Source: Thermodesulfovibrio sp. (GTDB taxonomy: Bacteria > Nitrospirota > Thermodesulfovibrionia > Thermodesulfovibrionales > UBA6898). Taken from it: a stretch of DNA of 64,000 bases. This document shows positions 47,373 through 62,734 of this stretch, piece by piece. The notes below the pieces were generated by a model. It was not told the origin of the DNA, made no database searches, and worked only from the letters and a program-made list of their open reading frames with translations. The stretch covers positions 1 through 64,000 of the forward strand of contig PNOC01000006.1 of the NCBI GenBank assembly GCA_013824615.1, given 5' to 3'. The first letter of the stretch is position 1; each line of letters begins with the position of its first letter. Both the position numbers and the translations under genes were made by a program.

Positions 47373-47933
47373 ATGGATCTGTCAGAAGCAGTAAAAACAC
47401 GCAGAAGCGTCAGGAGATTCAGCAATCAGCCGGTTGAAGAGGAGAAGCTGCAGACCCTGCTGGAGGCGGTCCGCATGTCGCCCTCCTGGGCAAACAGGCA
47501 GTGCTGGCGGTTTGTGGTGGTCAGGGATCAAAAGACGCGTGAGGCCGTCAGTGAACTTTCTTATGTCGAAGCTTTTTTTGCACCGAAGGGGTACAAAGTG
47601 AACCCCGCAAAGAAGGGACTTGCCGAGGCACCGGTTGTTGTCGTTGCCTGTGCAGACCCGACTGAGTCCGGGGTACTCTGGGACCAGCCCTATTACATGA
47701 CAGACATAGGCATAGCCTCTCAGACGCTCATGCTGACTGCGCACAGCCTGGGGTTGGGGTCGGTCTTTGTCGGAGTTTTTGATGATAAAAAAATGCGAGA
47801 GCTTCTCGGCATACCTGAGGCAATAAAGATAGTCGGCCTCTTTCCCGTAGGATATCCCCAGGACAATACAGTAAAAGAAGGGCCGCCTAGAAAGCAGCTC
47901 AATGAGATCGTTCATTACGAGAAGTGGAAATAG
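47373..47933 (+). CDS. Nitroreductase family protein (FMN)
   Basis: Protein of 186 residues with the NADH/flavin-dependent nitroreductase fold: [56 protein letters not shown] and the C-terminal VGLFPVGYP. Substrate unknown; members act on nitroaromatics, quinones or flavins. GGGAGGAATAAAGG precedes the ATG and it is coupled to rluD. Confidence 0.88.
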
Positions 47934-48134: not shown

Positions 48135-48854
48135 ATGAATTTGCTGATGAATCTTATTCTGCTATTTCAAGAAGACTTCGTAGATACCGGACGGGTACTG
48201 CTCCGCGGCAGGCGTGCGGAGCATATACGCAAGGTCCATCGCGCCAAAGTCGGGGACGAACTGACTGTCGGGATTGCCGGTGGAAGTATCGGCAAGGGGA
48301 CGTTACGTTCGCTCGATAAGGACACTGCATTGATGGAGATATCACTTACGCAGAACCCACCACCTCCACTGCCGGTCACCCTTGTTCTTGCATTGCCGCG
48401 TCCGAAGGTACTCAGAAGGGTTTTACAGACTGTGACATCGATGGGGGTGAAAAAGATCTATCTGGTTAACGCATACCGTGTCGAAAAGAGTTACTGGCAG
48501 AGCCCGTTTCTGACAGATGACGCTATACGTCAGCAACTGATACTGGGGCTTGAGCAGGCAAGGGACACGATAATGCCGGAAATACTGCTGCGCCCATTAT
48601 TCAAACCGTTTGTCGAAGATGAACTGCCCGGGATTATGGCCGGAACAACAGCCCTTCTTGCAGATCCGGGAGCAGGGAATGAATGCCCGAGAAATCTGCG
48701 CGGGAGCATTACGCTGGCGATAGGTCCGGAGGGAGGGTTTATTCAGTACGAGCTTGATAAACTAGTTGAAAGCAGGTTCGAACCTGTCAGTATGGGGGAG
48801 AGAATACTGAGGGTAGAAGCGGCTGTGCCAGCCCTGCTGGCAAGATTGCTTTAA
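48135..48854 (+). CDS. rsmE: 16S rRNA m3U1498 methyltransferase RsmE
   Basis: SPOUT-class methyltransferase of 239 residues. N-terminal PUA-like domain (RVLLRGRRAEHIRKVHRAKVGD), then the knotted SAM-binding part with VTLVLALPRPKVLRRVLQTV, SMGVKKIYLVNAYRVEKSYW and the signature LAIGPEGGFIQYE, plus MGERILRVEAAVPALLAR. No clear ribosome site; the Met at 48147 (MNLILLFQEDF) is as likely. The 200 bases before it hold nothing I can name. Confidence 0.93.
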   Translation: MNLLMNLILLFQEDFVDTGRVLLRGRRAEHIRKVHRAKVGDELTVGIAGGSIGKGTLRSLDKDTALMEISLTQNPPPPLPVTLVLALPRPKVLRRVLQTVTSMGVKKIYLVNAYRVEKSYWQSPFLTDDAIRQQLILGLEQARDTIMPEILLRPLFKPFVEDELPGIMAGTTALLADPGAGNECPRNLRGSITLAIGPEGGFIQYELDKLVESRFEPVSMGERILRVEAAVPALLARLL

Positions 48855-48927: not shown

Positions 48928-49299
48928 CTATTCTTTGTGCCTGCTCTTGTAGTCTTCAATCGCCTTTCTCAAGGCATCGGCCCCGAGGTTTGAGCAGTGC
49001 ATCTTCTGCGGAGGCAGGCCGCCGAGTTCCGCGGCAACAGCTTCTTTTGACATGGCATACGCCTCGTCGAGCGTCTTGCCTTTGACCATCTCGGTCACCA
49101 TGCTGCTGACCGCAATCGCCGCCCCGCAGCCGAAGGTCTTGAACTTGGCATCCGTAATAATGCCATCCTTGACCTTGATATAGATCTTCATGGCGTCGCC
49201 GCAGGTCGGATTGCCTTCCTGGCCAACACCGTCGGCGTCAGGCATATCGCCGACATTTCTCGGATTCGTAAAATGGTCCATCACTTTATCGCTGTACAT
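48928..49299 (-). CDS. iscU: Iron-sulfur cluster scaffold IscU/NifU-N
   Basis: Protein of 123 residues on which Fe-S clusters are built. All three ligand Cys and the Asp are present: GNPTCGDAMKIYI, TFGCGAAIAVSSMVTE and PPQKMHCSNLGADALR (here KMHC instead of KIHC; LPPVK motif as LPPQK). It follows fdhE by 77 bases and is not next to a cysteine desulfurase; the desulfurase-like gene is 10 kb away. A hairpin lies in its leader. Confidence 0.93.
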   Translation of the reverse strand: MYSDKVMDHFTNPRNVGDMPDADGVGQEGNPTCGDAMKIYIKVKDGIITDAKFKTFGCGAAIAVSSMVTEMVKGKTLDEAYAMSKEAVAAELGGLPPQKMHCSNLGADALRKAIEDYKSRHKE

Positions 49300-49309
49300 A
49301 ACGTCGTAT

Positions 49310-49342
49310 CATGCCGGAGCTTTAAATATGTCTGCCGGCATG
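49310..49342 (-). promoter_or_regulatory. Inverted repeat in the iscU leader
   Basis: CATGCCGG (49310-49317) and CCGGCATG (49335-49342) are perfect complements around 17 bases, 10 bases before the iscU start. It could be a leader hairpin or an operator. Confidence 0.35.
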
Positions 49343-49376
49343 CTCCTTTCCAGAATAAATAATATTAAAACGCTGT

Positions 49377-50306
49377 TTACTGTTTTATATTAGCATTTTT
49401 CAGCAGAGACCGGGAATAGCCACGGTCCTGTGCTATATAGTCAAGGTGCAGCGTTGCAAGATCTTCAACCGGAAGCATCTCCACAGGAGTCGCCTCAAAG
49501 GCTGTAATAACTTTGAGATAACCATGACACCTGTCGCAGACCTCCACTTTCATTCTTTCATTTTGATCTTCTGTGTAAAGCAGCCCGAGGGTATTGTGGT
49601 CTTCATTGCCGCAATACAGACACTGCAGCCGCCGAAAGGGCCAGTCAGCCCCGCATGTACCGCACCGCAGATGCTTAGCCTGGTTGTTCCCCTGAAGCTC
49701 GGCGAGAGTCGCTGCAGCGCCGCAGACAGGGCACTGCCCGCTGTCCCAGGGAACTCCCTCAATAAGAGGGGCCGCCTGCCTGCACAACTGCCGGAGGTAA
49801 GGTTCCATCGCATCGGACAACAGGGACCTGAGCAGGTCAGGGTCAAGGACAAGGTTCTCTGCTGCGCTAACAATACCTTCGGTGGCTCCGGAAGCAATAT
49901 CCGGCAATAGGCTGCCGACATCCAGCCTCTCCCCCTCAAGCGCCACGCGGATAGAACCAGCCTCGGCAGCATGAATCTTATTCAGACCCGTCGTCTCTTC
50001 CAGGGCTGACGCAAGACGCATCATTAAGCTGCAGACTTCGCGCTCGTCAATTTCAAGAGAAAGATCATGGAGAAGCGGCACTCCCTTCTCCAGTTTGGCA
50101 CGTGCCTCCTCCGGAGCTATGTCCACAGGTCTTGTAGAGATTTCGGCATCACGCAGGACCGGCAGTACTACCTCGTAGTAGCGGGCCGCTTCGCTCAGAT
50201 CAGGATTGTCCTTAACCACGCTCTGCAGGCGCTGCAATATCGGATCTTCAGGCGAATCTTCAGTATCGGCGGGATTTTTCAGGTCAGTCCTCCCCGCATG
50301 GCTCAT
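49377..50306 (-). CDS. fdhE: Formate dehydrogenase accessory protein FdhE
   Basis: Rubredoxin-like maturation factor of 309 residues for exported formate dehydrogenases. The C-terminal half has four Cys pairs (CPVCG, CGTCG, CLYCG, CDRCHG) as in FdhE, which keeps the enzyme competent before Tat export. The helical N-terminal part is more variable. Its ATG overlaps the fdhB stop (ATGA), so it is made with the enzyme. Confidence 0.9.
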   Translation of the reverse strand: MSHAGRTDLKNPADTEDSPEDPILQRLQSVVKDNPDLSEAARYYEVVLPVLRDAEISTRPVDIAPEEARAKLEKGVPLLHDLSLEIDEREVCSLMMRLASALEETTGLNKIHAAEAGSIRVALEGERLDVGSLLPDIASGATEGIVSAAENLVLDPDLLRSLLSDAMEPYLRQLCRQAAPLIEGVPWDSGQCPVCGAAATLAELQGNNQAKHLRCGTCGADWPFRRLQCLYCGNEDHNTLGLLYTEDQNERMKVEVCDRCHGYLKVITAFEATPVEMLPVEDLATLHLDYIAQDRGYSRSLLKNANIKQ

Positions 50307-51139
50307 TCCCCGGCCCCGGGTTCAGCTCCGGGTTCCTTCCTGCCTCCCCGCTCCCGAAACCTGATCAGTGCCACCATACCCATCAGAAAAGCAGAGAGTT
50401 GTGCCCCGCCCTTGTTGATAAGTGAGAGCTTTCTGCGCTGCTGCACAACCGGGTTCTCAGGCAGACCATAGACAGCAGGATTTTCCATCAGCAGATAAAA
50501 TACCTTTAGCCCGCCGGCTTCGCTATACCCGTAAAGATTAGCCTTGTTTTCACCGAGTTTTCTGAGCTGAGCAAGGCGGGAGTCGGCCTTTGTCTTCAGC
50601 TCGGAAACCTCGCCGAACTGTATCGAACCGGTCGGACAGGACTTGGAACAGGCTGTCCCCATGTTGTTATGGATGCGGTCATTACAGAGCGTACATTTAT
50701 GAGAGGTGCGGGTCTTCTCGCTGTATCGCACCACCCCGTACGGGCAGGCCTTGTTGCATAATTTGGTGCCGACACATTTGTCCTGCCGCACGATGACATT
50801 ACCGAGGTCAGTACGTTCTATGGCCTCCACCGGGCAGACGTTTAAACAGGCCGCGTCCGTACAGTGCTTACATGAATCGCTCATGAAAAGCCAGCGCGAT
50901 GCCGTGCGGCGTGAATTGATCTGCTCGATGAACAGAACGTGCCGCCAGTCCCTCGCACTCAGCTTTCCGGTGTTGTCATATGAGTTGCCGGTAAAATTGC
51001 TGGCCACCGGATAGGGAGCTCCCGGCCCTTGAGTAAAGTGGTCAGGTTCGGCCTCAAGCCCATTCCACTCCTTGCAGGCCACCTGGCATGCCTTGCAGCC
51101 TGTGCATATAGAGGTATCAACAAACATTCCCTTTGCCAT
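50303..51139 (-). CDS. fdhB: Formate dehydrogenase iron-sulfur subunit FdhB
   Basis: Electron-transfer subunit of 278 residues from ATG 51139, which overlaps the fdhA stop (TGATG). It carries four 4Fe-4S motifs: CTGCKACQVACKEW, CKHCTDAACLNVCP, CVGTKLCNKACPYG and CTLCNDRIHNNMGTACSKSCPTG. One C-terminal hydrophobic segment (LSAFLMGMVALIRF) may anchor it to the membrane, as in FdnH. A cytochrome b subunit is not encoded next to it, so the quinone or cytochrome partner is unknown. Confidence 0.92.
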   Translation of the reverse strand: MAKGMFVDTSICTGCKACQVACKEWNGLEAEPDHFTQGPGAPYPVASNFTGNSYDNTGKLSARDWRHVLFIEQINSRRTASRWLFMSDSCKHCTDAACLNVCPVEAIERTDLGNVIVRQDKCVGTKLCNKACPYGVVRYSEKTRTSHKCTLCNDRIHNNMGTACSKSCPTGSIQFGEVSELKTKADSRLAQLRKLGENKANLYGYSEAGGLKVFYLLMENPAVYGLPENPVVQQRRKLSLINKGGAQLSAFLMGMVALIRFRERGGRKEPGAEPGAGE

Positions 51140-54100
51140 CAGACCGTACCTCCTTTCCTGCCCGCACGTACATTGCACGTAAAGACCTTCCCTTCATGGA
51201 TAGAGACGTTGGGATCAGCCACAAGCGCACTGAGGTTGTTCACCACGTCGCCCTGTGCCGTGCCCTGCCAGCCCCAGTGCCACGGCATACCAATCTGATG
51301 CACGGTTTTCCCGTTAATCACGAAAGGCTTCATGCGGCGGGTCACCAGCGCCCGTGCCTGGATCTCCCCCCGCGCCGTCCAGATGGTCATATACTCACCG
51401 TTCATGATGCCCTTATCGACTGCCAGTTCCGGTGAGATCTCGCAGAACAGTTCAGGCATCAACTCCGCCAGCCACGGCAGCCATCTGCTCATGACCCCGC
51501 TCAGGTAATGCTCGGTAAGCCGGTACGTCGATATGACGATCGGATAATCAGGATCGGCCACCTTATGATACGGGTTGCCCGCAATCTTCCAGACCTTTGC
51601 AACAGGGTTGGATTCCTGTTTATAAAGAACATTGTTAACAGGTGATTCATATGGCTCATAATGGGTCGGCAAAGGACCATCGACCAGACCTGCGGGTGCA
51701 AAGAGCCAGGCCTTGCCGTCAGCGCGCATGATGAAGGGATCGTTGCCCCCCAGCCAGTCAAAGCCGATGCCGGCGTCTTTGCCGGCAGAACCCGGGGCCT
51801 TCGTAAGCGCAAAGTCTATACCATCTCCGGACGGCGTAAGCCATTTACTGCTAACGGCATCCCAGTAGACAAGCTTCTTTTTTTCCGACCAGGGATTGCC
51901 CTTCGTGTCAGCAGAGGCCCGATTATACATGATATGACGGTTTGCCGGCCACGCGAATCCCCAGTTTGGCGAGATCCAGTTATCGCCCTGACGACGCGCC
52001 GACTGGTTCTTGCCCTCCTCAGGAATAACGCCGGTGTAAATCCAGGCGCCGCAGACGGTAGAGCCGTCTTCCGCAAGGTTCGCAAATGAGGGAACAGGCT
52101 TTTTATCTTTCCAGATATAGCCGTTAATCTCCTTGAGCGCCTTATAGGCAGAGGGCTCGTCCTTGATACGCCAGTTCGCCACTTCCGCCGGCTCAGGCTC
52201 ATAGTCCCACGTCAGGTTCCTGATCGCCCAGTCCCGCTCGCGGGTAGAATCCTTGTAGAGCGCCTTGATTTTCTTGCCCAGGTGGTACGTAAACCAGAGA
52301 TTGCTGCGGGAATCGTCGGGTGGATCGGCGGCTTTTTCATGATATTGCAGCAGCCGCTGGGTATTGGTAAAAGAACCCTCCATTTCCGGCACACACGCAG
52401 AAGGCAGATAAAATATCTCTGTCTTTATGTCCGCTGTCTTGAGCTCTCCCGACTTGATCTCGGGCGAGTTGCGCCAGAAGGAGGCGGTCTCGGTCTCATA
52501 GAAATCCCTCACCACCATCCAGTCCAGCTTTGCAAGCGCTTTTCGCTGGAACCTGGCGTTCTGACCGCCGACAGCAGGGTTCTGCCCCACGCAGAGAAAC
52601 CCTTTGATCTTTCCGTCCATCATGTCCACAAACATCGGCAAATGGGAATGATCACCGGTAATCTTGGGATGGTAATGATACCCATAATCGTTCTCCCTGG
52701 TTGCCGCGTCGCCGAACTGGGCCTTAAAGTATGAGACGGCAAATTTGGGATAGTTGCCCCAGTAACTCGTCGAAACCGGGACCGCCTCGGTCAGGATAAA
52801 ATCTTTCAGAGAGTCGTGATTCCGGCGGGCATCGGGCATATTCAGGTAACCAGGAAGGGAATGATACAGCGTGGCGATGTCGGTTGATCCCTGAATAGTT
52901 GAATGACCACGCAGGGCCAGGATTCCGCCCCCCGGCCTTCCGATGTTGCCAAGCAGCGCCTGGAGCATGCCTGCGCAGCGGATGATCTGTACCCCGACCG
53001 TGTGCTGGGTCCAGCCGACAGCGTAGGTTATGTTCGATGTCTTGTCTCGTCCCGAATTATTCAGCAGCGTTTCGGCAACGCGGAGAAAGGTTTCCTTCGG
53101 GCATCCGCAGACGCGCTCGACCATCTCAGGCGTATAGCGGGCATAGTGCTTTTTGACGATCTGGAATACGGTCTGGGGATCCTGAAGCGTCATATCGGTC
53201 TTCGGTCTGCCGGGTACACGCTGCAGCAGGAGATCCGTAAAGGTTTTGGCCTCGCTTACCGTAGACGCAGGCGCCGGGTTGCGCTGATATGACCAACTGG
53301 CATTTGAATACGTCTTGCCGTCGCCGGAAAGTCCTGAGAAGACGCCGTCGAGATCGTCAGGATCCTTGAAGTCGGCATTTACCAGCGTTGCGGCATTCGT
53401 ATAATTGATCACATATTCCTTGAAAAACGGGTCTGAATTCCAGCGGCTGCTGTTGATGACGTACGTAATAAGTGCACCGAGAAAGACAATGTCACTGCCT
53501 GCCCGGATCTGCGCGTGAATGTCGCAGAGGGCCGAGGTCCGCGTAAAACGCGGATCAACATGCATCAGGACCGCACCATGCTCTGTTTTTGCCTTGAGCG
53601 GCCAACGGAACGCCACAGGATGGCACTCTGCCATGTTAGAACCCATGATCATAACTGCGTCGGAATTGACGAGATCACGGGGAAACGTTGTCGAACCACC
53701 CCGTCCAAACGTGACCCCCAGCCCGGGGACCGTGGAGGAGTGTCATATTCGGGCCTGGTTCTCTACATAGACAACGCCCAGGCCGTGCATAAGCTTCTGC
53801 TGTGCATAATTCCATTCGTTATCGATCGTCGCACCGCCGAGTGAAGCCAGGGCATAGGTGTTCATCACCCGTTTTTTCGCCTTGCCTCCCTTGCCATCCG
53901 GGAGCTCCTCGAACTCATTAAAGTTTGCATCGCGGGTCTCTTTGACCAGTTTGGCGATACGGTCCATGGCCCAGTCCAGTGGCTTCTCTTCCCAGTGATC
54001 ACTGCCCGGTGCGCGGTACTTGACCTTTGTCCAGCGATGCTCGTTCATGACAAGCTGATAGGTTGCCGCACCTTTCGGACAGAGGGTGCCTTCGCTTATT

Positions 54101-54348
54101 GGCGAATCAGGGTTTCCCTCGATGCCGATGATCTTGCCGGCATCGTTGACCATAACAATCTGACCGCAGCCAACAGAGCAGAACGGACAGATGCTCGGCA
54201 CCTGCTTCCCTGTCTTAATCGGGACACTGAGCGCACGGCCCTGCACCGCCGCAGTATCCACCCCCAGAGCCGCTGTTTCTGTGGCAACAACGGCACCAAT
54301 AGCACCTGCTGAAATCTTAATAAATTGTCGACGGGTGACGTTCATCAT
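51139..54348 (-). CDS. fdhA: Tat-exported formate dehydrogenase catalytic subunit, selenocysteine at UGA
   Basis: Molybdo- or tungstopterin enzyme oxidising formate to CO2, 1069 residues. The twin-arginine signal is TRRQFIK (5-11). The 4Fe-4S motif uses Cys54, 57, 61 and 90 (CPFCSVGCG, then LCPKGA). An in-frame TGA at 53743-53745 (codon 202) lies in NQARI-Sec-HSSTVPGLGVTFGRG, the position of Sec in E. coli FdnG (NQARV-Sec-HGPT). Downstream MIMGSNMAECHPVAFRWPLK and the C-terminal molybdopterin-dinucleotide domain (TYRLTEHYLSGVMSRW) are intact. AAGGAGG precedes the ATG pair. Orthodox callers would report two fragments. Confidence 0.95.
53713..53730 (-). promoter_or_regulatory. Putative SECIS hairpin of the fdhA mRNA
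   Basis: Starting 13 nucleotides after the UGA, GTCCCC pairs with GGGGGTC (includes G-U pairs) around a loop beginning GGG. Distance and G-first loop agree with bacterial SECIS elements and with the hairpin after the peroxiredoxin UGA. Confidence 0.6.
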
Positions 54349-54454
54349 GGGATCGTATCCTCCTTCTTAACACCAGAATATCAAAATCTCATAGATACTT
54401 AAAGCATTATATTATACGGCGGGCCTGTTCTGTGTAGGCTTATGTAAAAATCGA

Positions 54455-54474
54455 TTGTCAGTTTTTGCTGACAA
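54455..54474. promoter_or_regulatory. Dyad operator between fdhA and the cytochrome P460 gene
   Basis: TTGTCAG-TTTTTG-CTGACAA is a perfect 7+7 inverted repeat with a six-base centre, the geometry of CRP/HcpR-type sites. It is 80 bases before the P460 start and 107 bases before fdhA, so it could control both divergent genes. Confidence 0.45.
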
Positions 54475-54553
54475 AGAGTTTCTTTTGATGGACATGAAAT
54501 CATTTTAGCGGTAAAGTGTAGATATTGTTACCGCAGACAAGGAGGATAATAAG

Positions 54554-55102
54554 ATGAAGAGTATCAGGATGTTCGTTTTTGCCGGAGTTGTTGGTATCGG
54601 CCTCATGCTTGCCGGGAGTGATCTGTTTTCAGCCCAGGACAGGTATGCGCTGAAGGCCCCCAATGGACTCTCCTTCGAAGATATACGGGGCTATGAGACC
54701 TGGCAGGTAATCGCACCAAGTTATCGGACCGATAAAAAAGAAGTCCGGTACATACTCGGGAATACCACGCTTGTGGATGCCTACAAAAAAGGCGCGTCCA
54801 ATAAAGGTATTGCCTTTCCTGACGGCGCCGTTCTTGTGAAAATTGCCTATTCCGAGATGAAGAACCCTGTGTTCCCGGCAGCTCTTGAGCCGGATGTTCT
54901 TCAGAGGATTGAGTTCATGGTGAAGGATTCAAAAAAATTCAGCGCTACCGGCGGTTGGGGATATGCACGTTTCGTCTATAACCCGGCCTCAAACACCTAT
55001 ACTCCCTACGGAAAAGATGCCGCCTTTGCAGACGAGTGCTACCAGTGCCATACACTTGTAAAAGACCGTGACTATGTGTTTACGAAATATCCGGTCCGTT
55101 GA
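54554..55102 (+). CDS. Cytochrome P460 family protein
   Basis: Periplasmic monohaem protein of 182 residues: signal peptide (1-27), a P460-type domain (GLSFEDIRGYETWQVIAPSY, FPDGAVLVKIAYSE, WGYARFVYNPASNT) and haem site CYQCH (near 164-168). Cytochromes P460 oxidise hydroxylamine or bind NO; related c'-beta proteins are NO-binding. AAGGAGGATAATAAG precedes the ATG. Placement divergent from formate dehydrogenase and in a genome with nitrite reductase suggests defence against nitrite-reduction by-products (inference). Whether the haem-lysine cross-link exists cannot be read. Confidence 0.85.
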   Translation: MKSIRMFVFAGVVGIGLMLAGSDLFSAQDRYALKAPNGLSFEDIRGYETWQVIAPSYRTDKKEVRYILGNTTLVDAYKKGASNKGIAFPDGAVLVKIAYSEMKNPVFPAALEPDVLQRIEFMVKDSKKFSATGGWGYARFVYNPASNTYTPYGKDAAFADECYQCHTLVKDRDYVFTKYPVR

Positions 55103-55116
55103 TTCTCTGAAATACC

Positions 55117-56502
55117 ATGACTGACTTCCGTATTGAGCATGATGCCCTCGGTGAGGTGAGCATACCCGCAGATGCGCTTTATGGGGCCCAGACCCAGCGC
55201 GCGATCGATAACTTTCCTCTCAGCGGGACAGCCTTTCCGCGGGTTTTTATCCGTTCTCTCGGCCTGATAAAAAAAGCCGCAGCCATGGCAAATGAGGATC
55301 TGGGTATGCTCGATGCCGCGAAAGCAGCGGCAATCACGGCCGCTGCAGACGAGGTGATAGCAGGCAGATGGGACACTCAGTTTCCTGTCGACATATTCCA
55401 GTCAGGGTCGGGCACCTCAACAAATATGAATGCAAACGAAGTCATCGCAAACAGGGCCATCCAACTGTCGGGAGGGGCCCCTGGGGCCAAGACGATCCAT
55501 CCCAATGACCATGTCAACCGGGGCCAATCGACGAATGACGTTATCCCGACTGCTATCCATGTCAGCGCCTTTATACTGGCAAGCGAGTCCCTTCTGCCGG
55601 CATTACGCCATCTCCATGGCGCGTTGATCAAGCGCATGCAGGAACTCGATGACGTTGTTAAGACCGGCCGCACGCACCTGATGGATGCAGTGCCGATCAG
55701 GATGAGCCAGGAGATTAGCGGATGGGCCCATCAGATCAGGCAGGCTATCGAGCGGATCGAATCCTGTCTGCCGAGACTGGCCATGCTGGCCATCGGGGGA
55801 ACAGCAGTCGGAACCGGCATCAATGCCCATCCGGAGTTCGGGAAACGGGTGGCTGCCTTGCTAGCCGCTGAAACGGGATTACCCTTTGAGGAAACAGGTA
55901 ACCACTTTACCTCTCAGGCAGCCGTTGATACGGCGGCTGAACTGAGCGGCCACGTGAAGACAGCGGCCCTGTCCCTCATAAAGATATGCAATGACCTGCG
56001 CCTTATGAACAGCGGCCCGGTTGCCGGTCTGTCAGAGATATCGCTTCCTGCAGTCCAGCTCGGTTCGAGCATCATGCCCGGAAAGACCAACCCGGTCATC
56101 TGCGAGGCAGTGACCATGGTCTGCGTGCAGGTGATCGGCAATGATACCGCGATCACGATCGGAAGCCAGTGCGGCAATTTTGAGGTGAACATCATGCTGC
56201 CGCTCATAGCGCACACTCTGCTTCAGTCTGTCTCGATTCTCGCTCATGCCGCACGCCTGCTTGCAGACAAGGCTGTTGCGGGGTTTACCGTAAACCGGGA
56301 ACATATTGCAGAGCTCGTCGGTCGGAATCCCATCCTCGTCACTGCGCTGTCGCCAATAATCGGATATGACAAGGCCGCGATGATTGCCCGTAAGGCCTTT
56401 GCTGAAAAGCGCAGTATAAAAGATGTTGCAGCTGAAATGACGGAGTTGACCTCAGAAGAACTCGACCGCCTGCTGGACCCGCGTTCGATGACCGGGAAAT
56501 AA
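55117..56502 (+). CDS. fumC: Class II fumarate hydratase
   Basis: Iron-free fumarase, 461 residues. Landmarks: FRIEHDALGEVSIPADALYGAQTQRA, SGSGTSTNMNANEVIANRA, HPNDHVNRGQSTNDVIPTA, GRTHLMDAVPI and the signature GSSIMPGKTNPVICEA. It connects malate and fumarate in the TCA cycle. It begins 14 bases after the P460 gene, probably co-transcribed. Assignment over aspartate ammonia-lyase rests on the length and the fumarase-type C-terminus. Confidence 0.93.
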   Translation: MTDFRIEHDALGEVSIPADALYGAQTQRAIDNFPLSGTAFPRVFIRSLGLIKKAAAMANEDLGMLDAAKAAAITAAADEVIAGRWDTQFPVDIFQSGSGTSTNMNANEVIANRAIQLSGGAPGAKTIHPNDHVNRGQSTNDVIPTAIHVSAFILASESLLPALRHLHGALIKRMQELDDVVKTGRTHLMDAVPIRMSQEISGWAHQIRQAIERIESCLPRLAMLAIGGTAVGTGINAHPEFGKRVAALLAAETGLPFEETGNHFTSQAAVDTAAELSGHVKTAALSLIKICNDLRLMNSGPVAGLSEISLPAVQLGSSIMPGKTNPVICEAVTMVCVQVIGNDTAITIGSQCGNFEVNIMLPLIAHTLLQSVSILAHAARLLADKAVAGFTVNREHIAELVGRNPILVTALSPIIGYDKAAMIARKAFAEKRSIKDVAAEMTELTSEELDRLLDPRSMTGK

Positions 56503-56681
56503 CCGCAGGCATCGAGCCGGCACATACATCACGCTTGCACTGAACACTCCCCTACCGGCCGGTTGAGGTCATCATTTTGCATGCAGACTTTGGCATTGAC
56601 AACCCGCCTTCCCGGAATCATTATATGACATGGAACAAAGCCGTGCTTCGCGGCTGCAATGGATTACGCGGGGAGGCAGTT

Positions 56682-57347
56682 ATGTCTGGGAAGAAATTGG
56701 TGCTGATCGTATTTTCATTGATGTTGGTACTTGCAAGTGCAGCATATGCCGCACCTGGGGTTGAGGTGAGCGGTAATCTGCATTTATCAGGAACGGGGAC
56801 AATCAGTTTCCCGGATGGCAAATCGCAAACGACGGCAGCAACCGACTGCACAGGGAGATATGAATTTAACAGTAATGTTAACTATCCGAATGGCGATGGA
56901 ACAGTGACGGATTGCAGGACAGGGGTAATATGGTTGAAAAACGCAAACTGCACAGATACCAGCAACGGCATTGCAAAAGCAGAAAACAATGGTACACTTG
57001 CCTGGGCGGATGCCAACGCGTGGGTCGCAGGTCTGGGCAATGGTATATGCGGGCTGCATGACGGTTCTTCAGCCGGAGACTGGAGACTGCCGACGAAAAC
57101 GGAATGGATGGCTATGGTTCAGAGTGCGCGAAAGCATGGCTACGCAAACCCTGCTCTAACAGATGCGGCAGGGAACGGACAGTGGACAGAGGGAGATATT
57201 TTTGACAGCGTCAAGGGCATCTACTGGTCCGGCAGCAGCTTCGATGCCGACGGCGCCTGGTGTGTCGCCCTGAGCATTGATGGCGGCATTGCCGTCGACA
57301 TTAAGAGCAACAGCGACTATGTATGGCCGGTACGTATCGGGAAGTAG
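56682..57347 (+). CDS. Secreted DUF1566 (Lcl C-terminal) domain protein
   Basis: Protein of 221 residues from ATG 56682 (GGGGAGG seven bases before). Signal peptide (1-23), a short strand region ending in DGKSQTTAA that resembles tail-fibre-like linkers, then DUF1566 (RLPTKTEWMAMV, IYWSGSSFDADG, YVWPVRIGK). Cys residues (TDCTGRY, TDCRTG, NANCTD) may pair. The family has a C-type-lectin-like fold on the cell surface; the ligand is unknown. It is convergent with the DUF4139 gene. An upstream ATG at 56577 gives no signal peptide and is rejected. Confidence 0.82.
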   Translation: MSGKKLVLIVFSLMLVLASAAYAAPGVEVSGNLHLSGTGTISFPDGKSQTTAATDCTGRYEFNSNVNYPNGDGTVTDCRTGVIWLKNANCTDTSNGIAKAENNGTLAWADANAWVAGLGNGICGLHDGSSAGDWRLPTKTEWMAMVQSARKHGYANPALTDAAGNGQWTEGDIFDSVKGIYWSGSSFDADGAWCVALSIDGGIAVDIKSNSDYVWPVRIGK

Positions 57348-57386
57348 ATTGTTTAATATAGGCCACCCGATCAACAGAACAGCCTC

Positions 57387-59090
57387 TCACTCCAATCCGC
57401 TTACCTGTCTGTCCGGAGGGTATTCTACGGAAAAGACGAACGGGATCTTGATCATCTCGCCCGGCTTGACCTTGAAATACCACTCAAAAAAGTTCAGTTC
57501 GTTCTTTTTCAGCACCGGTGAGTCCTTCTCGTATTGAGGCTCCACCAGCTTAACCACGATGTCCTGGTGGGATGCAATCGGCAGCTGGTCCCAGACAACC
57601 AGTTCCTCTTCGGTTTTCTTGTTGTTCGTAATCTCCGTCAGATACTCGTAAACCATTTTGGTCTTCTTTTCGAATAGCCCTTCCTGCTTCTGGTGTTTCT
57701 TCAGAAACTTCCGCTCGACCTTGATCGCCCCATCAACCCCGAGGAACGTCCAGAACTCCTCACCAGGGGCAACCTGTTTCATGGAGGCATTCGCAACGAA
57801 GCTGCTGTCCAGAAATACATTGGTATTGCCCGGCAGGAGGGGAAATTCACTCGCATTCTTCACCTTCGTTTTCAGATATGCATTGGGTGAAAGTTTTGGA
57901 ACCGTGGAATAACGGAAATCAGCCGGGAAATCCTGAATAAGAACCGTAACCTTGTGCGGCAGATTGTCGCTGGCTATGGTATTTCTGCCTCTGATCTGAA
58001 AAACAACGGAAGTAGCATTCGTCTGAACATTGGCAGCCGGTTTATCCATTACACTGGCCGCCTTTTGTTCCTCCAGGCTATCCATCTCTGCAGCTGCGGC
58101 AGGCATCATCTGCCTTGCCATCTGCGGTGCAGGAGCTGCCGGATAGGCAACTGCCTTCTTGTCTAAACGGGGGCGCGGCTCGATAAAACTGACACGCCAG
58201 GGATAAAGCTCAGGCTGCTGACCGCCGATCCGGGGCTGGGCAGTCGAGAGCTCCACCGCCACATCGTCCCAGGCTTCAGAGGTGTTCTGCCGTATGACCG
58301 CATTATAGGTCAGGTTCATCTTTTTTTCGCGGGTCGAGACACGAAGGTCATATAACGGCTGCCAACTTGGACCGCGCACTATGTAAGAGAGCGAGAGGGA
58401 GAGTTCCCCTGCCTCCTTCATCCTCACCAGCACCTCCACATGGTACCTGGTCTTCTGTTCAGCGCTGCCAAGGTCCGCAATCTGCCTGGTGACCTTGCTC
58501 AGCCTGGCCTTCTGGTCACGTTTGGCAATCTCCGTTTCACGAATTTCCTTGTCAAGCGCCGCATTCCTGACGCGGTAGAGATCCACCATTTTGACCCATT
58601 TTTCAGGGTCCAGTTCTCCTGCAGGGGTCTTGTCCGTGACGCCTGTCAGCTTCCTGGTTATATTCTCAAGAAATCCCTTCTCATTATTTGCCAGGCTGAT
58701 CTTTCCATCCAGCTCTGCAATCCGGTCTTCAATATTTGTCTTTTCGTCCAGAAGGGCCTTTCTGTCCTTGTCCGGGGTTTCAGTATAGCGTTCTATGTCC
58801 GTCTTCACATCACTCAGTTCAGCGCTGCCTGTGCCGTTCACCTGAATGCTGCCAGGCTCCAGCCCGGCCGGCAGATTATCGAATACAAGCCGCTGCTCGC
58901 CTGCAGGAAGTTTCTCTGAGGCAGTTCGCGTCACCTGCGCACGGTCTGAATATACAGTTACGGCCGAGATGCGCGATTTAAGTATCTTGACTGCAGGGTC
59001 ATTGGCTTTGGCAAAGGCAGTACTTGATCCGGCAAGAAAAATCCCCAATGCACAGACGGTCAACAGGACAACACGGATTACAGGTTTCAT
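57387..59090 (-). CDS. DUF4139 / mucoidy-inhibitor (MuiA) family exported protein
   Basis: Protein of 567 residues with signal peptide (1-27), N-terminal DUF4140-like strand region (ISAVTVYSDRAQVTRTASEKLP), a coiled coil (EKTNIEDRIAELDGKISLANN) and the long DUF4139 domain (LSLSYIVRGPSWQPLYDLRV, DVAVELSTAQPRIGGQQPEL, VKLVEPQYEKDSPVLKKNEL). The family is secreted or envelope-bound, of unknown biochemistry. Single gene; upstream ribosome site AAGAGGAGAGG. Confidence 0.87.
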   Translation of the reverse strand: MKPVIRVVLLTVCALGIFLAGSSTAFAKANDPAVKILKSRISAVTVYSDRAQVTRTASEKLPAGEQRLVFDNLPAGLEPGSIQVNGTGSAELSDVKTDIERYTETPDKDRKALLDEKTNIEDRIAELDGKISLANNEKGFLENITRKLTGVTDKTPAGELDPEKWVKMVDLYRVRNAALDKEIRETEIAKRDQKARLSKVTRQIADLGSAEQKTRYHVEVLVRMKEAGELSLSLSYIVRGPSWQPLYDLRVSTREKKMNLTYNAVIRQNTSEAWDDVAVELSTAQPRIGGQQPELYPWRVSFIEPRPRLDKKAVAYPAAPAPQMARQMMPAAAAEMDSLEEQKAASVMDKPAANVQTNATSVVFQIRGRNTIASDNLPHKVTVLIQDFPADFRYSTVPKLSPNAYLKTKVKNASEFPLLPGNTNVFLDSSFVANASMKQVAPGEEFWTFLGVDGAIKVERKFLKKHQKQEGLFEKKTKMVYEYLTEITNNKKTEEELVVWDQLPIASHQDIVVKLVEPQYEKDSPVLKKNELNFFEWYFKVKPGEMIKIPFVFSVEYPPDRQVSGLE

Positions 59091-59139: not shown

Positions 59140-60336
59140 TCAGCCGGTTACGCAGGTACCGCCCTCCTGCGAGTCTCCCCAGCCCTGCGCAAAGGGGGAT
59201 ATCTCCCTGAGCCTCCTAATCACGGCAGGGAATTCAGTCACCAGGTGGTCCACATCTTCAATCGCATTCCCCATACCCAGGGTAAAAACAATAGAGCCCT
59301 GCGCCAGTCCGGTCGGTACGCCCATCGCCAGAAGCACGGGAGAGGACTTCAAAGCCTTTGATGAACAGGCTGATCCGCTCGCGGATAAAATACCCTTGGC
59401 TGCCATCAGCATCAGCATCGCCTCGCCCTCGATAAATTCAACACAGAAACTGGCATGCCCCGGCAGACGGTTCTGACGGTCGCCAGTCAAAATAGCATTT
59501 GGAATCCCTGCCACACTGTCGATGATCCTGTCCCTCAGCGGCCTGAGATATTCCATCCTCTTGCCCAGCTCAGCCTTTGCAAGCTCTGCAGCCTTGCCCA
59601 TGCCGACGATCGCAGGGACATTCTCTGTTCCTGCCCGCCTGCCTGACTCCTGTATGCCGCCGTATATAAGCGGAACGATCCGCAGACCCTGCTTCACATA
59701 AAGGGCCCCCGCACCTTTGGGGCCATAGAACTGATGTGCAGCCATCGTCAGCAGGTCAACTCCCAGGTCCTGCACATCAACCGGAATATTGCCGGTGGAA
59801 GCAACAGCATCGGTATGCACGATAATATTATGTTCTTTCGCGATCCGGGCAATCTCCTTGATCGGTTCAATCGTCCCGACCTCGCTGCTGGCATGGGTCA
59901 CTGATATCAGAGTTGTCTCCTTGATGATCGCCTTCCTGACGGTCTCAGGATCAACAACCCCCTGTTTGTCAACCGGAAGATACGTGACCGTAAACCCGCT
60001 TTTTTCGAGGAAACGGGCAGCGTTCAATATGGAATGGTGCTCCATGCGGGAGACGATAATATGCTTGCCCTCATTCTGCCGGGCAAGGGCAATACCCCTC
60101 AGGGCAAAGTTGTTCGCCTCGGCGCCGCTGGCCGTAAAAGTGATTTCAGAGGGCTTTGCATTGACAAGGCCGGCAACCTTTTCCCGAGCCTCTTCAATGG
60201 CGTTCTTGGCCGTCATACCATAGGCATGAACACTCAGAGGGTTGCCGAACTCCTCTTTGAAATACGGCATCATCGCCTCAAGCACTACCGGGTCGAGCGG
60301 GTTCGTGGCCACGTGATCAAAATAATATTTCTTCAT
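59140..60336 (-). CDS. NifS/IscS-like cysteine desulfurase homologue lacking the PLP lysine
   Basis: Fold-type-I protein of 398 residues from ATG 60336 (GAGG six bases before; the GTG at 60342 is the other option). It keeps the sulfur-carrying Cys in SGSACSSKALKSS, the His in RMEHHSIL and the Asp in HTDAVAS. The PLP-lysine motif SSHKxYGPKG instead reads AAHQFYGPKG: Gln202 (codon CAG, 59731-59733) replaces Lys, and the Q of DATQS is Ala. The start YFDHVATNPLDP also differs from the common DNAATTP. The archaeal Archaeoglobus IscS is known to lack this lysine too. Without it, normal desulfuration is unlikely; a scaffold or sulfur-transfer role is inferred. Confidence 0.85.
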   Translation of the reverse strand: MKKYYFDHVATNPLDPVVLEAMMPYFKEEFGNPLSVHAYGMTAKNAIEEAREKVAGLVNAKPSEITFTASGAEANNFALRGIALARQNEGKHIIVSRMEHHSILNAARFLEKSGFTVTYLPVDKQGVVDPETVRKAIIKETTLISVTHASSEVGTIEPIKEIARIAKEHNIIVHTDAVASTGNIPVDVQDLGVDLLTMAAHQFYGPKGAGALYVKQGLRIVPLIYGGIQESGRRAGTENVPAIVGMGKAAELAKAELGKRMEYLRPLRDRIIDSVAGIPNAILTGDRQNRLPGHASFCVEFIEGEAMLMLMAAKGILSASGSACSSKALKSSPVLLAMGVPTGLAQGSIVFTLGMGNAIEDVDHLVTEFPAVIRRLREISPFAQGWGDSQEGGTCVTG

Positions 60337-60338
60337 AC

Positions 60339-60590
60339 TCACCTCGCATGCTTCTTGATATAGAATTTAAAAAAATCCGGGGTCTCATCTATCCCGAGGA
60401 ACTCGTTACCTGTCTTGTCGCACCAGGCCGGGATATCCTCAAGCGCCCCGTCGTAGTCGGTCATGATCTCAAGTATCTGCCCGGGCTCAAGCTCCTTCAT
60501 CTGCTCCTCAAGCTTCAGAAGATGCATCGGGCACATCATATAGACGATATCGGTCGTGACATCCGGCTTGACATTCTCGACAAACTTCAT
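60339..60590 (-). CDS. TusA-like sulfur-carrier protein
   Basis: Protein of 83 residues with the TusA (SirA/YeeD) pattern: active Cys20 in MMCPMHLLKLEEQMKELEPG, followed by EIMTDYDGALEDIPAWCDKTG and the edge strand KFYIKKH. TusA proteins accept persulfide sulfur from a desulfurase for tRNA thiolation, molybdopterin enzymes or sulfur oxidation. It overlaps the Rrf2 stop (ATGA) and ends three bases before the desulfurase-like ATG, so the three genes form an operon. Confidence 0.86.
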   Translation of the reverse strand: MKFVENVKPDVTTDIVYMMCPMHLLKLEEQMKELEPGQILEIMTDYDGALEDIPAWCDKTGNEFLGIDETPDFFKFYIKKHAR

Positions 60591-61084
60591 GATGCCAGCC
60601 GCGCCTTTGTCTTATCCGGAACCTTGGCCATAATATTGCCAGGAACCTGGCCAGGCCTCTGCTTCAGAGAAATAAACTCATTGCCTTCGAGCAGGTCCTT
60701 CAGCGTCATGCTGTTCAGAAAGGCCTCGATATTTTCACCAAGTGATTTCCAGAGCAGATGCGTAACACACCCTTCAACCCGCATGCAGCCCTCTTTCGGG
60801 TCAAGACAGGAGGTTATCGCCACCGGCCCCTCGAGCTCCCGCAGGATCTCACCGATGCTCACCTTGCCCGGGTCCCGGCTCAGGACATACCCGCCGCCCG
60901 GCCCCCTGACGCTCTTGATGATGCCTGACTTGCGGAGCTGGTTGAGGATCTGCTCCAGATAGGCGACCGAAACATCCTGCCGCTCTGATATCTCCCTGAT
61001 CGTGACAGGACCGTGATTGCAGCTCCGGGCAATTTCAAACATCGCCCGCACACCATACTGCCCCTTTGTCGATAATCTCAGCAT
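60587..61084 (-). CDS. Rrf2 family (IscR/CymR-like) regulator
   Basis: Winged-helix regulator, 165 residues: MLRLSTKGQYGVRAMFEIA, VSVAYLEQILNQLRKSGII and VRGPGGGYVLSRDPGKVS. Three Cys in SCLDPKEGCMRVEGCVTHLLW can bind a 2Fe-2S cluster as in IscR. It begins the operon with the TusA-like and desulfurase-like genes, so it likely adjusts them to iron-sulfur or cysteine status. The 80 bases before it are AT-rich (promoter not resolved). Confidence 0.9.
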   Translation of the reverse strand: MLRLSTKGQYGVRAMFEIARSCNHGPVTIREISERQDVSVAYLEQILNQLRKSGIIKSVRGPGGGYVLSRDPGKVSIGEILRELEGPVAITSCLDPKEGCMRVEGCVTHLLWKSLGENIEAFLNSMTLKDLLEGNEFISLKQRPGQVPGNIMAKVPDKTKARLAS

Positions 61085-61192
61085 ATATAAATTTAATAAT
61101 AGTCTAGTGATTCTGTCAAGTATTAAGATTGAGGGCAGATAGCGGCCTCGGGTAAAGAAAAGAAGGTGTCTGCCCTGGCAAAGTTACCAGGC

Positions 61193-62734
61193 CTACCAAT
61201 CTATGGGGAAATAGTCTTTCAGAAACTTTCCGGACCAGTGTTTGCCGGTCAGGATTCCATCAAAAAAAGGATCACAGACCCTGGCAGCTCCATCGACAAT
61301 ATCCAGCGGCGGTTGAAAATCATGGACATCCTGTTTCATCTGCGAAAGCTCAAGGGGATCTTCATCCGTGACCCAGCCGGTATCAACCGCGTTCATATAG
61401 ATGCCATCCCGGGCAAGCTCTTCGGCAGAGGTATGAGTCAGCATATTCAGAGCTGCTTTAGCCATATTGGTATGCGGGTGCCTGGCATCTTTCTTAAACC
61501 TGAAGAACTTGCCTTCCATGGCAGTAACATTGACGATATGCTTCTGCCCGGTGTAATCGCGCTTCATGAGAGCCGCCAGGCGGTTGCACAATACAAAGGG
61601 CGCTACCGAATTCACCAGCTGCACCTCCAGCATTTCGGTAACCGGAACCTCTCCGAGACGCAGCCGCCAGCTGTTGGTCTTTCTCAGGTCTACCTGCTGG
61701 AGATCGGCATCCAGCCGGCCTTCCGGAAAAATCTCTTCAGAAACCAAAGAAGCATCATGCCTGTAGGGGATCTGGGAAAGTCTGGCAGATTCGCGCAGCC
61801 CGATGCCGGCCACCTGGTTATGCCACGCAACAGGGAGTGCGGTTTCATTCTCCTGGATATCATGGCAGAGCGACGCAAGCAGCTGCTTGCAGGCCGCATG
61901 GTCTGCAAGCAGCTGCTGCGCCTCGGCGGACAAGACGCTGCAGCCCTTATTTTCGTTTTCCATAAGATGAGCATAAAAACCCGCAGGCCTGCGCACAGTC
62001 TGGGCAGCGTTGTTTATTAATATATCGAGACGCCCGAACCGCTTTTCCAGATAACCGGCAAAGATCTCGACGCTCGGAATATGCCTCAGGTCAAGGCCAT
62101 GGATATGCAATCTGTCGCCCCAGACCTCGAAGTCCTCTTCCTTGAAATATCTGGCTGCTGCATCCACCGGGAACCTGGTCGTCGCAATGACCGTAGCTCC
62201 GGCACGCAGCATCTGCAGCGTGGCCTGATACCCGATCTTTACCCGCGCGCCCGTAATAAGGGCAACCTGGCCCTGGAGCGACACTGTCTGGAACCGCTTG
62301 CGGTAGTTCAGGTCGCCGCATCTGCTGCAGAGCATGTCATAGAAAAAGTGAAGACGGGTAAACTCTTCTTTACATATGTAGCAATTTCTGGGGGAATTCA
62401 GGATTTTCGTGCTGCGATCGGAATTGCGTCCTGCATCGGCTGCATCAAAATCTATCTGCAGCGGGGCAACAAAGGTTTCCTTGGTGCGGGCCTGACGGAT
62501 ACCGGTAGCATTTCTGCTGGTCCGGTCTTTTTCGAGCGCAGACCTGCGCCTGAGCTGACCTGCAGCCCTATTTCTTTTTTTTATTTCTTCTCTGTCGGGA
62601 CGGGAAATCCTTCCCGTTGCTTTCAGAAGTGCAATCTTCTGCTCTTCCGGCAGGCCTGCGAACTGGCCCGGGTCAGCGGCAAGGGCCTCAAGCATGGCAA
62701 TACAGTTGTCAATTTCCTCTGAAACATATTTCAT
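61193..62734 (-). CDS. Zinc-ribbon SDR-fold protein with altered catalytic residues
   Basis: Protein of 513 residues. The N-terminal 110 residues are charged and helical; a four-Cys ribbon follows (Cys118, 121, 136, 139: [17 protein letters not shown]). Residues about 152-460 are a short-chain dehydrogenase fold: [22 protein letters not shown] (cofactor loop TGARVKIG), [17 protein letters not shown] and [18 protein letters not shown]. The catalytic Ser is Ala405 (NVTAMEG) and the Tyr of YxxxK is Thr422 with Lys426 kept. A 100-residue insertion sits between strands 4 and 5. Classical oxidoreductase chemistry is therefore doubtful. It precedes nothing on the same strand before the operon ends near 61150. 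Confidence 0.8.

Follow-up and report, generated by a model that had tools for sequence, protein, structure and literature searches.

The window analysed here is the whole stretch of 64,000 nucleotides from Thermodesulfovibrio sp., whose genome is 100% complete. Three minus-strand genes, rrf2, a tusA-like gene and an iscS/nifS-like gene, follow one another with ends that overlap or abut, as a preliminary description of this DNA had reported. The first (60587..61084) encodes an IscR-like Rrf2 regulator of 165 aa (Rrf2, 140 bits), the second (60339..60590) a TusA-like sulfur carrier of 83 aa (Pfam TusA, 74.3 bits, above the cut-off), and the third (59140..60342) a 400-aa IscS/NifS homologue without the PLP lysine (Pfam Aminotran_5, 261.8 bits). 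The palindromic operator AATACTTGACAGAATCACTAGACTATT, on the same strand at 61098..61124, overlaps a TTGACA −35 box. Also on the minus strand, at 48928..49299, is the gene for a 123-aa IscU scaffold (NifU_N, 174.5 bits), the displaced partner of the Lys-less IscS. Between a SAM-adenosyltransferase-like gene and rrf2, window 61193-62734 encodes a short-chain dehydrogenase-like protein of 513 aa that contains a zinc-ribbon-like CxxC stretch; in close relatives such as L011 and L013 the SAM-adenosyltransferase-like gene directly adjoins rrf2, without the 513-aa gene between them.

Homologous loci were fetched from 84,980 genomes, yielding 80. Their IscS proteins, together with the window protein and Archaeoglobus fulgidus IscS (82 Lys-less proteins), were aligned with 19 Lys-containing comparison proteins, and IscS residue numbers such as Lys206, Gln183 and Arg354 refer to the E. 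coli protein. At the position of Lys206 the window protein has Gln204, encoded by CAG (59731..59733, minus strand) in the motif AAHQ204FYGPKG. None of the 80 fetched homologues has lysine there (71 Gln, 8 Glu, 1 Ile); across the 82 Lys-less proteins the residue is Gln in 72, Glu in 8, Asp in 1 and Ile in 1, against Lys in 19/19 of the Lys-type set. The identification of a NifS/IscS homologue with a Cys loop and Gln for the Schiff-base lysine is therefore upheld, and a sequencing error at this codon is ruled out because all 80 homologues also lack the lysine. All 19 Lys-type proteins have Gln183, whereas 80 of the 82 Lys-less ones have Ala (Ala181 in the window protein, within DAVA). This Ala had been described as replacing a Gln that stacks near PLP; the Ala is present, but the description of the Gln was imprecise, since in E. 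coli IscS the residue lying above the PLP ring is His104, whereas Gln183 forms a hydrogen bond with the phenolate oxygen (PMC9978102).

Further losses had been overlooked. The position of Arg354 holds Val (66) or Leu (16) in the 82 Lys-less proteins and Arg in 19/19 Lys-type proteins; the window protein has Val352 (codon 59287..59289, minus strand), and A. fulgidus IscS has Leu in the same alignment. The equivalent of Arg354 binds the cysteine carboxylate in homologue structures; the number 354 for this residue is supported by its distance of 26 residues from Cys328. Asn155, kept by all 19 Lys-type proteins, has mostly given way to Ser, Pro or Gly in the Lys-less ones (Ser in the window protein), and Thr76 is lost in those of the Nitrospirota (Ala in the window protein). 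Three positions, His104, Asp180 and Cys328, are fixed in both sets. The last of these, the persulfide or ligand Cys of the mobile loop, is kept in 82/82 Lys-less proteins and is Cys326 of the window protein (59365..59367, minus strand), where the loop SASGSAC326SS is intact. The window protein scores below the NCBIfam cut-offs for both NifS (485.6 against 530.75) and IscS (374.3 against 643.2), and its AF2 model (pLDDT 87) matches the fold of A. fulgidus IscS (4eb5/4hvk) with a TM score of 0.95.

In E. coli IscS, changes at Lys206, Asp180, Gln183 or His104 abolish desulfurase activity (PMC9978102). The alignment shows a protein that, judged by its residues, can neither form a PLP Schiff base nor hold cysteine in the usual way. 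The proposed loss of desulfurase chemistry is thus borne out at the level of sequence and is more thorough than had been claimed, Arg354 having gone as well. We consider it improbable that PLP is kept non-covalently and used for a different reaction or for desulfuration at a low rate. His104, Asp180 and Thr243 vary little or not at all in the Lys-less proteins, and E. coli IscS still binds some PLP as K206A and stays active as R354K (PMC9978102), so that residual PLP binding by the Lys-less protein is possible. However, the loss of Arg354, Gln183 and Asn155, and of Thr76 in the Nitrospirota, removes contacts to both substrate and cofactor.

A series of PDB entries (9wep, 9wer, 9wew, 9wf8, 9wfb, 9wfe and 9wfy) contains one IscS with stepwise changes at Thr76, the Asn155 region, the Gln183 region, Lys206 and Arg354, the positions that are lost naturally here; we found no paper matching the series. 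This IscS is probably from Aquifex, as the IscU chain of 9wfy resembles A. aeolicus IscU (2z7e).

The Lys-less IscS-IscU pair is already known from archaea. A. fulgidus IscS was reported to be inactive, yet a ligand donor to the IscU cluster, in a passage of PMC7585200 that cites Marinoni 2012, Yamanaka 2013 and Pagnier 2014. The suggested likeness to this protein is supported, and extends to the same triple loss of Lys206, Gln183 and Arg354. Like A. fulgidus IscS2-IscU (4eb5, 4eb7, 4hvk, 4r5f), the pair described here combines an absent PLP lysine, Ala for Gln183, an aliphatic residue for Arg354, a retained loop Cys and the same IscS fold with a cognate IscU bearing the HCSNL-ADALR signature. 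It differs in having Gln or Glu where A. fulgidus IscS2 has Asp, in being bacterial, and in its co-encoded TusA and IscR-like regulator. For Methanosarcina acetivorans IscS1-IscU1, compared here by description, absence of the catalytic lysine was likewise reported and an A. fulgidus-like action suggested; that genome additionally has an active IscS2 and SufBC (PMC7585200).

A tree of 64 proteins places the bacterial Lys-less proteins in a single clade of their own (support 96/95), which splits into a Nitrospirota branch (100/100) and one for the other phyla (96/86). A. fulgidus IscS, on a long branch, lies outside this clade, separated from it by one Lys-type protein (99/96) that we take to be from Aquifex. 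Grouping A. fulgidus IscS with the bacterial clade was not rejected (AU p 0.063), and the sequences are compatible with either one or two origins of the lysine loss. On these comparisons the bacterial clade is best read as a variant of the A. fulgidus-type IscS-IscU pair. The motif (Gln/Glu)FYGPKG was found in 52/148 Nitrospirota genomes, and the Gln form in 26/27 genomes of the family to which this genome belongs; none was found in the large f22 family, which is probably the aerobic Nitrospira.

The three genes had been regarded as a complete module. This did not hold, as IscU, displaced here to 48928-49299, belongs to the unit as well: it occurs at 78/80 related loci, in nearly every case immediately after the Lys-less iscS and often overlapping or abutting its end. 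The best PDB match of IscU is A. fulgidus IscU (4eb5_C), and the cluster-site residues Cys33, Asp35, Cys58, His101 and Cys102 are nearly invariant. HCSN is found in 76/79 of the IscU proteins and in A. fulgidus IscU; the partner of the Lys-type IscS in locus L070 has HCSI. In L051 (4998-8806), the Lys-less iscS and iscU stand apart, with two genes of about 350-390 aa between them.

In relatives L011 and L010 iscS-iscU is followed by genes for RsmE and a nitroreductase. These genes (48135-48854 and 47373-47933, respectively) lie beside iscU in the window, which points to the insertion of a block (49377..59090) between iscS and iscU. This block of about 9.7 kb, running from FdhE and the formate dehydrogenase genes to a DUF4139 gene, appears to have displaced iscU from the operon in this genome. 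Among the genomes of the family, iscS and iscU are split in G000 and probably in G010, while in G026 the contig ends at this point. The displaced iscU sits 77 bp behind fdhE, at the end of the formate dehydrogenase cluster (window 48928-53652), and no copy of the iscR-like operator was found at it; given this position and the missing operator copy, control of iscU has probably changed in this genome. Within the cluster, an FdhA-like reading frame (window 51139-53652) apparently lacks its N-terminal part, and a selenocysteine TGA just upstream is possible.

TusA is found in 76/80 loci. In the Nitrospirota, where the gene order is rrf2-tusA-iscS-iscU, tusA precedes iscS at every one of the 61 loci, with some copies truncated at contig ends. 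TusA is also present in 15/19 loci from other groups: in Chloroflexota, Aminicenantes and two 'Deltaproteobacteria' MAGs, genes for a zinc-ribbon protein, DsrE2 and TusA often come after iscS-iscU. Constant adjacency of TusA and Rrf2 to the iscS with the His-Gln motif, proposed earlier as a check, is strict within the Nitrospirota loci. Among 49 Lys-type paralogues in the 27 genomes of the family, none has TusA or Rrf2 within about 1 kb. Cys20 of TusA is kept in 76/76 relatives and Cys57 in 72/77; around the invariant Cys20, the acceptor motif is CPMH in the Nitrospirota, instead of CPxP, and mostly CPMP in other phyla. The Thermodesulfovibrio genome encodes eight proteins of the TusA family (loci L165-L172). 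One of them (C46) adjoins ThiF/MoeB-like and JAB-like genes, and two (C43, C95) are longer and YedF-like.

For the Rrf2 protein the best NCBIfam model is IscR (149.6 bits, under the model's cut-off). Cys93, Cys100 and Cys106 are present in 58/58 of these proteins, in keeping with the earlier prediction of an Fe-S-type, and more precisely IscR-like, regulator; His109 is present in the window protein and in 34/58 overall. A palindrome lies 39-41 nt upstream of rrf2 in 56/56 testable loci, 53 of them having the strict form. It reads AATACTTGACA-N5-ASTARRSTATT with a somewhat variable right half. The left half, AATASTTGAC, is exact in 53/56 testable loci, and the other three have ATATACTTGACA at the same place. 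Allowing up to two mismatches, the operator is the sole such site in the genome, the chance expectation within the window being 0.02. It closely resembles an IscR type-1 site. A single operator in the genome makes the regulator look dedicated to the operon, and counts against Rrf2 as a global regulator. The ancestral unit of the Nitrospirota is iscR-like/tusA/Lys-less iscS/iscU under one conserved operator.

We give almost no credence to the idea that the Lys-less gene is a decaying duplicate without function. Its catalytic residues are lost and Lys-type paralogues occur in the genome, but against close relatives dN is 0.08-0.12 and dS >1; a dN/dS far below 1 indicates purifying selection on the protein. 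Furthermore, the loop Cys is 100% conserved, the operator is kept at all 56 loci, and the operon is found in 26/27 genomes. The low dN, the invariant loop Cys and the conserved operator led us to reject this idea.

The Thermodesulfovibrio genome had also been proposed as a place to look for a second, Lys-containing IscS or SufS. Two Lys-type NifS-like proteins were found, one in a free-standing NifU-NifS pair (C28) and one elsewhere (C70), which rules out a genome devoid of Lys-type desulfurases and means that sulfur may still start from cysteine. No SUF core was found in this genome, which encodes DsrA. Scaffolds were surveyed in 22 further Nitrospirota genomes. In nine near-complete ones (G030, G055, G093, G095, G097, G109, G114, G120 and G134) the operon IscU is the only NifU_N protein, and no SUF core was found in these nine. 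Each has at least one further type-I-like desulfurase match elsewhere, with Lys in the eight that were read (that of G114 not being among them). SUFBD-core proteins of about 320 aa (63-77 bits), possibly SmsB-like, were seen in G040, G060, G103, G144 and others.

The explanation that we favour, and judge rather probable, is an ISC-type Fe-S unit with an IscS that has turned into a non-catalytic partner of IscU, a sulfur supply from TusA or sulfide, and IscR-like control. A non-catalytic platform is suggested by the disappearance of Lys206, Gln183 and Arg354 together from all, or almost all, of the 82 proteins while His104, Asp180 and Cys328 are kept, and by A. fulgidus IscS, which has the same losses and is an inactive ligand donor in the account quoted from PMC7585200. 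Pairing with IscU is indicated by its presence in 78/80 loci, usually overlapping or abutting iscS, by its intact ligands and by the HCSN shared with A. fulgidus IscU. The link to TusA comes from its presence in 76/80 loci and beside 0/49 Lys-type paralogues. The sole scaffold in nine genomes, purifying selection, the ability of H2S to feed IscU in E. coli without IscS (PMC13015791) and the DsrA of this genome also argue for this explanation; the position of iscU outside the operon in this genome counts against it, as do the Lys-type NifS-like proteins of this genome and of most relatives, from which cysteine sulfur might still be drawn.

The Lys-less IscS probably serves as a docking partner of IscU, with sulfur arriving another way. 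By analogy with the A. fulgidus (IscS-IscU)2 complex, it would dock IscU and might lend loop Cys326 as a cluster ligand or sulfur relay. IscU would receive its sulfur either from the TusA-like protein of the operon, which would carry it as a persulfide, or from free sulfide, rather than from cysteine on the Lys-less IscS. A donor role of TusA would be a reversal of the E. coli route, in which IscS passes sulfur to TusA. Once clusters suffice, the IscR-like Fe-S sensor would repress the operon through its one dedicated operator, as the conserved operator and the three invariant Cys suggest.

A variant that differs only in the sulfur source is a division of labour: persulfide would be produced from cysteine by a separate Lys-type NifS and delivered by TusA to the Lys-less IscS and IscU, where clusters are assembled. 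This is plausible, at somewhat below an even chance. C28, with its NifU, and C70 could supply such an activity here, most genomes examined outside the family hold at least one Lys-type protein beyond the operon, often without a scaffold of its own, and TusA is an established sulfur acceptor of IscS (PMC2854127). However, the Lys-type genes are linked neither to TusA nor to the operon (0/49), and in G103 (98% complete, 160 contigs) no Lys-type desulfurase was found, where an assembly gap is possible.

Alternatively, IscU and the Lys-less IscS might build clusters from Fe(II) with H2S used directly, in the manner proposed for SMS, leaving TusA a side role, for instance in tRNA thiolation or sulfur homeostasis. 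The occurrence of the unit in anaerobic lineages and its absence from the f22 family are consistent with this, as are DsrA in this genome and the precedents of SMS (PMC12192291) and of IscU in E. coli without IscS (PMC13015791). We nevertheless think it rather unlikely, as it leaves unexplained the conservation of TusA beside iscS in two gene orders, in one of them with DsrE2.

In ISC, NIF, SUF and MIS, sulfur is held to enter through cysteine desulfurase, with SMS discussed as the exception (PMC12192291). Like SMS (SmsCB), for which Fe-S assembly without a desulfurase and with sulfide as the source was proposed, the favoured explanation dispenses with cysteine desulfuration; SMS, however, is built on SufB/SufC and the present unit on IscU. 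It shares with MIS (MisS-MisU) the pairing of an IscS homologue with an IscU homologue, but has lost the desulfurase site, whereas MIS, compared here by description, is presented as having a cysteine desulfurase in the part of PMC12192291 that deals with it. With E. coli ISC (IscR-IscS-IscU) and TusA it has in common the IscR-like regulator, the type-1-like operator, the IscS fold and IscU; unlike that system, it lacks an active desulfurase site and has TusA inside the operon. HscAB, ferredoxin and IscA were not recognised among the conserved neighbours looked at.

Nothing was found on a Lys-less IscS in Nitrospirota or Chloroflexota, nor on the biochemistry of any bacterial member, in the open-access literature, outside which most subscription papers fall. 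The same holds for the bacterial clade, its TusA and IscR-like genes, the Arg354 loss and the sole-scaffold status, for which earlier notice in subscription papers is possible. The clade suggests that the IscU lineage, too, has a natural desulfurase-free branch, in bacteria and with a candidate carrier (TusA) and regulator, and through it what had been a lone archaeal curiosity, A. fulgidus IscS, would become a system under selection and encoded in an operon. Its importance lies in the near-complete genomes of those bacteria in which the Lys-less IscS accompanies the only recognisable cluster scaffold. Much more tentatively, and with the balance against it, a widespread bacterial ISC-type machine could be envisaged in Nitrospirota, Chloroflexota, Aminicenantes and others, which would build clusters on IscU without cysteine desulfuration, be fed by TusA/DsrE2 persulfide or sulfide, have a dead IscS as obligatory docking and ligand subunit, and be the main Fe-S system of the cells.

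In two Chloroflexota loci, L070 (2442-3614 and 5001-6185) and L083 (3010-4221 and 4950-6191), a Lys-type iscS neighbours a Lys-less one. The iscS copies of L070 each have an iscU of their own, providing a natural pair for comparing partner specificity.
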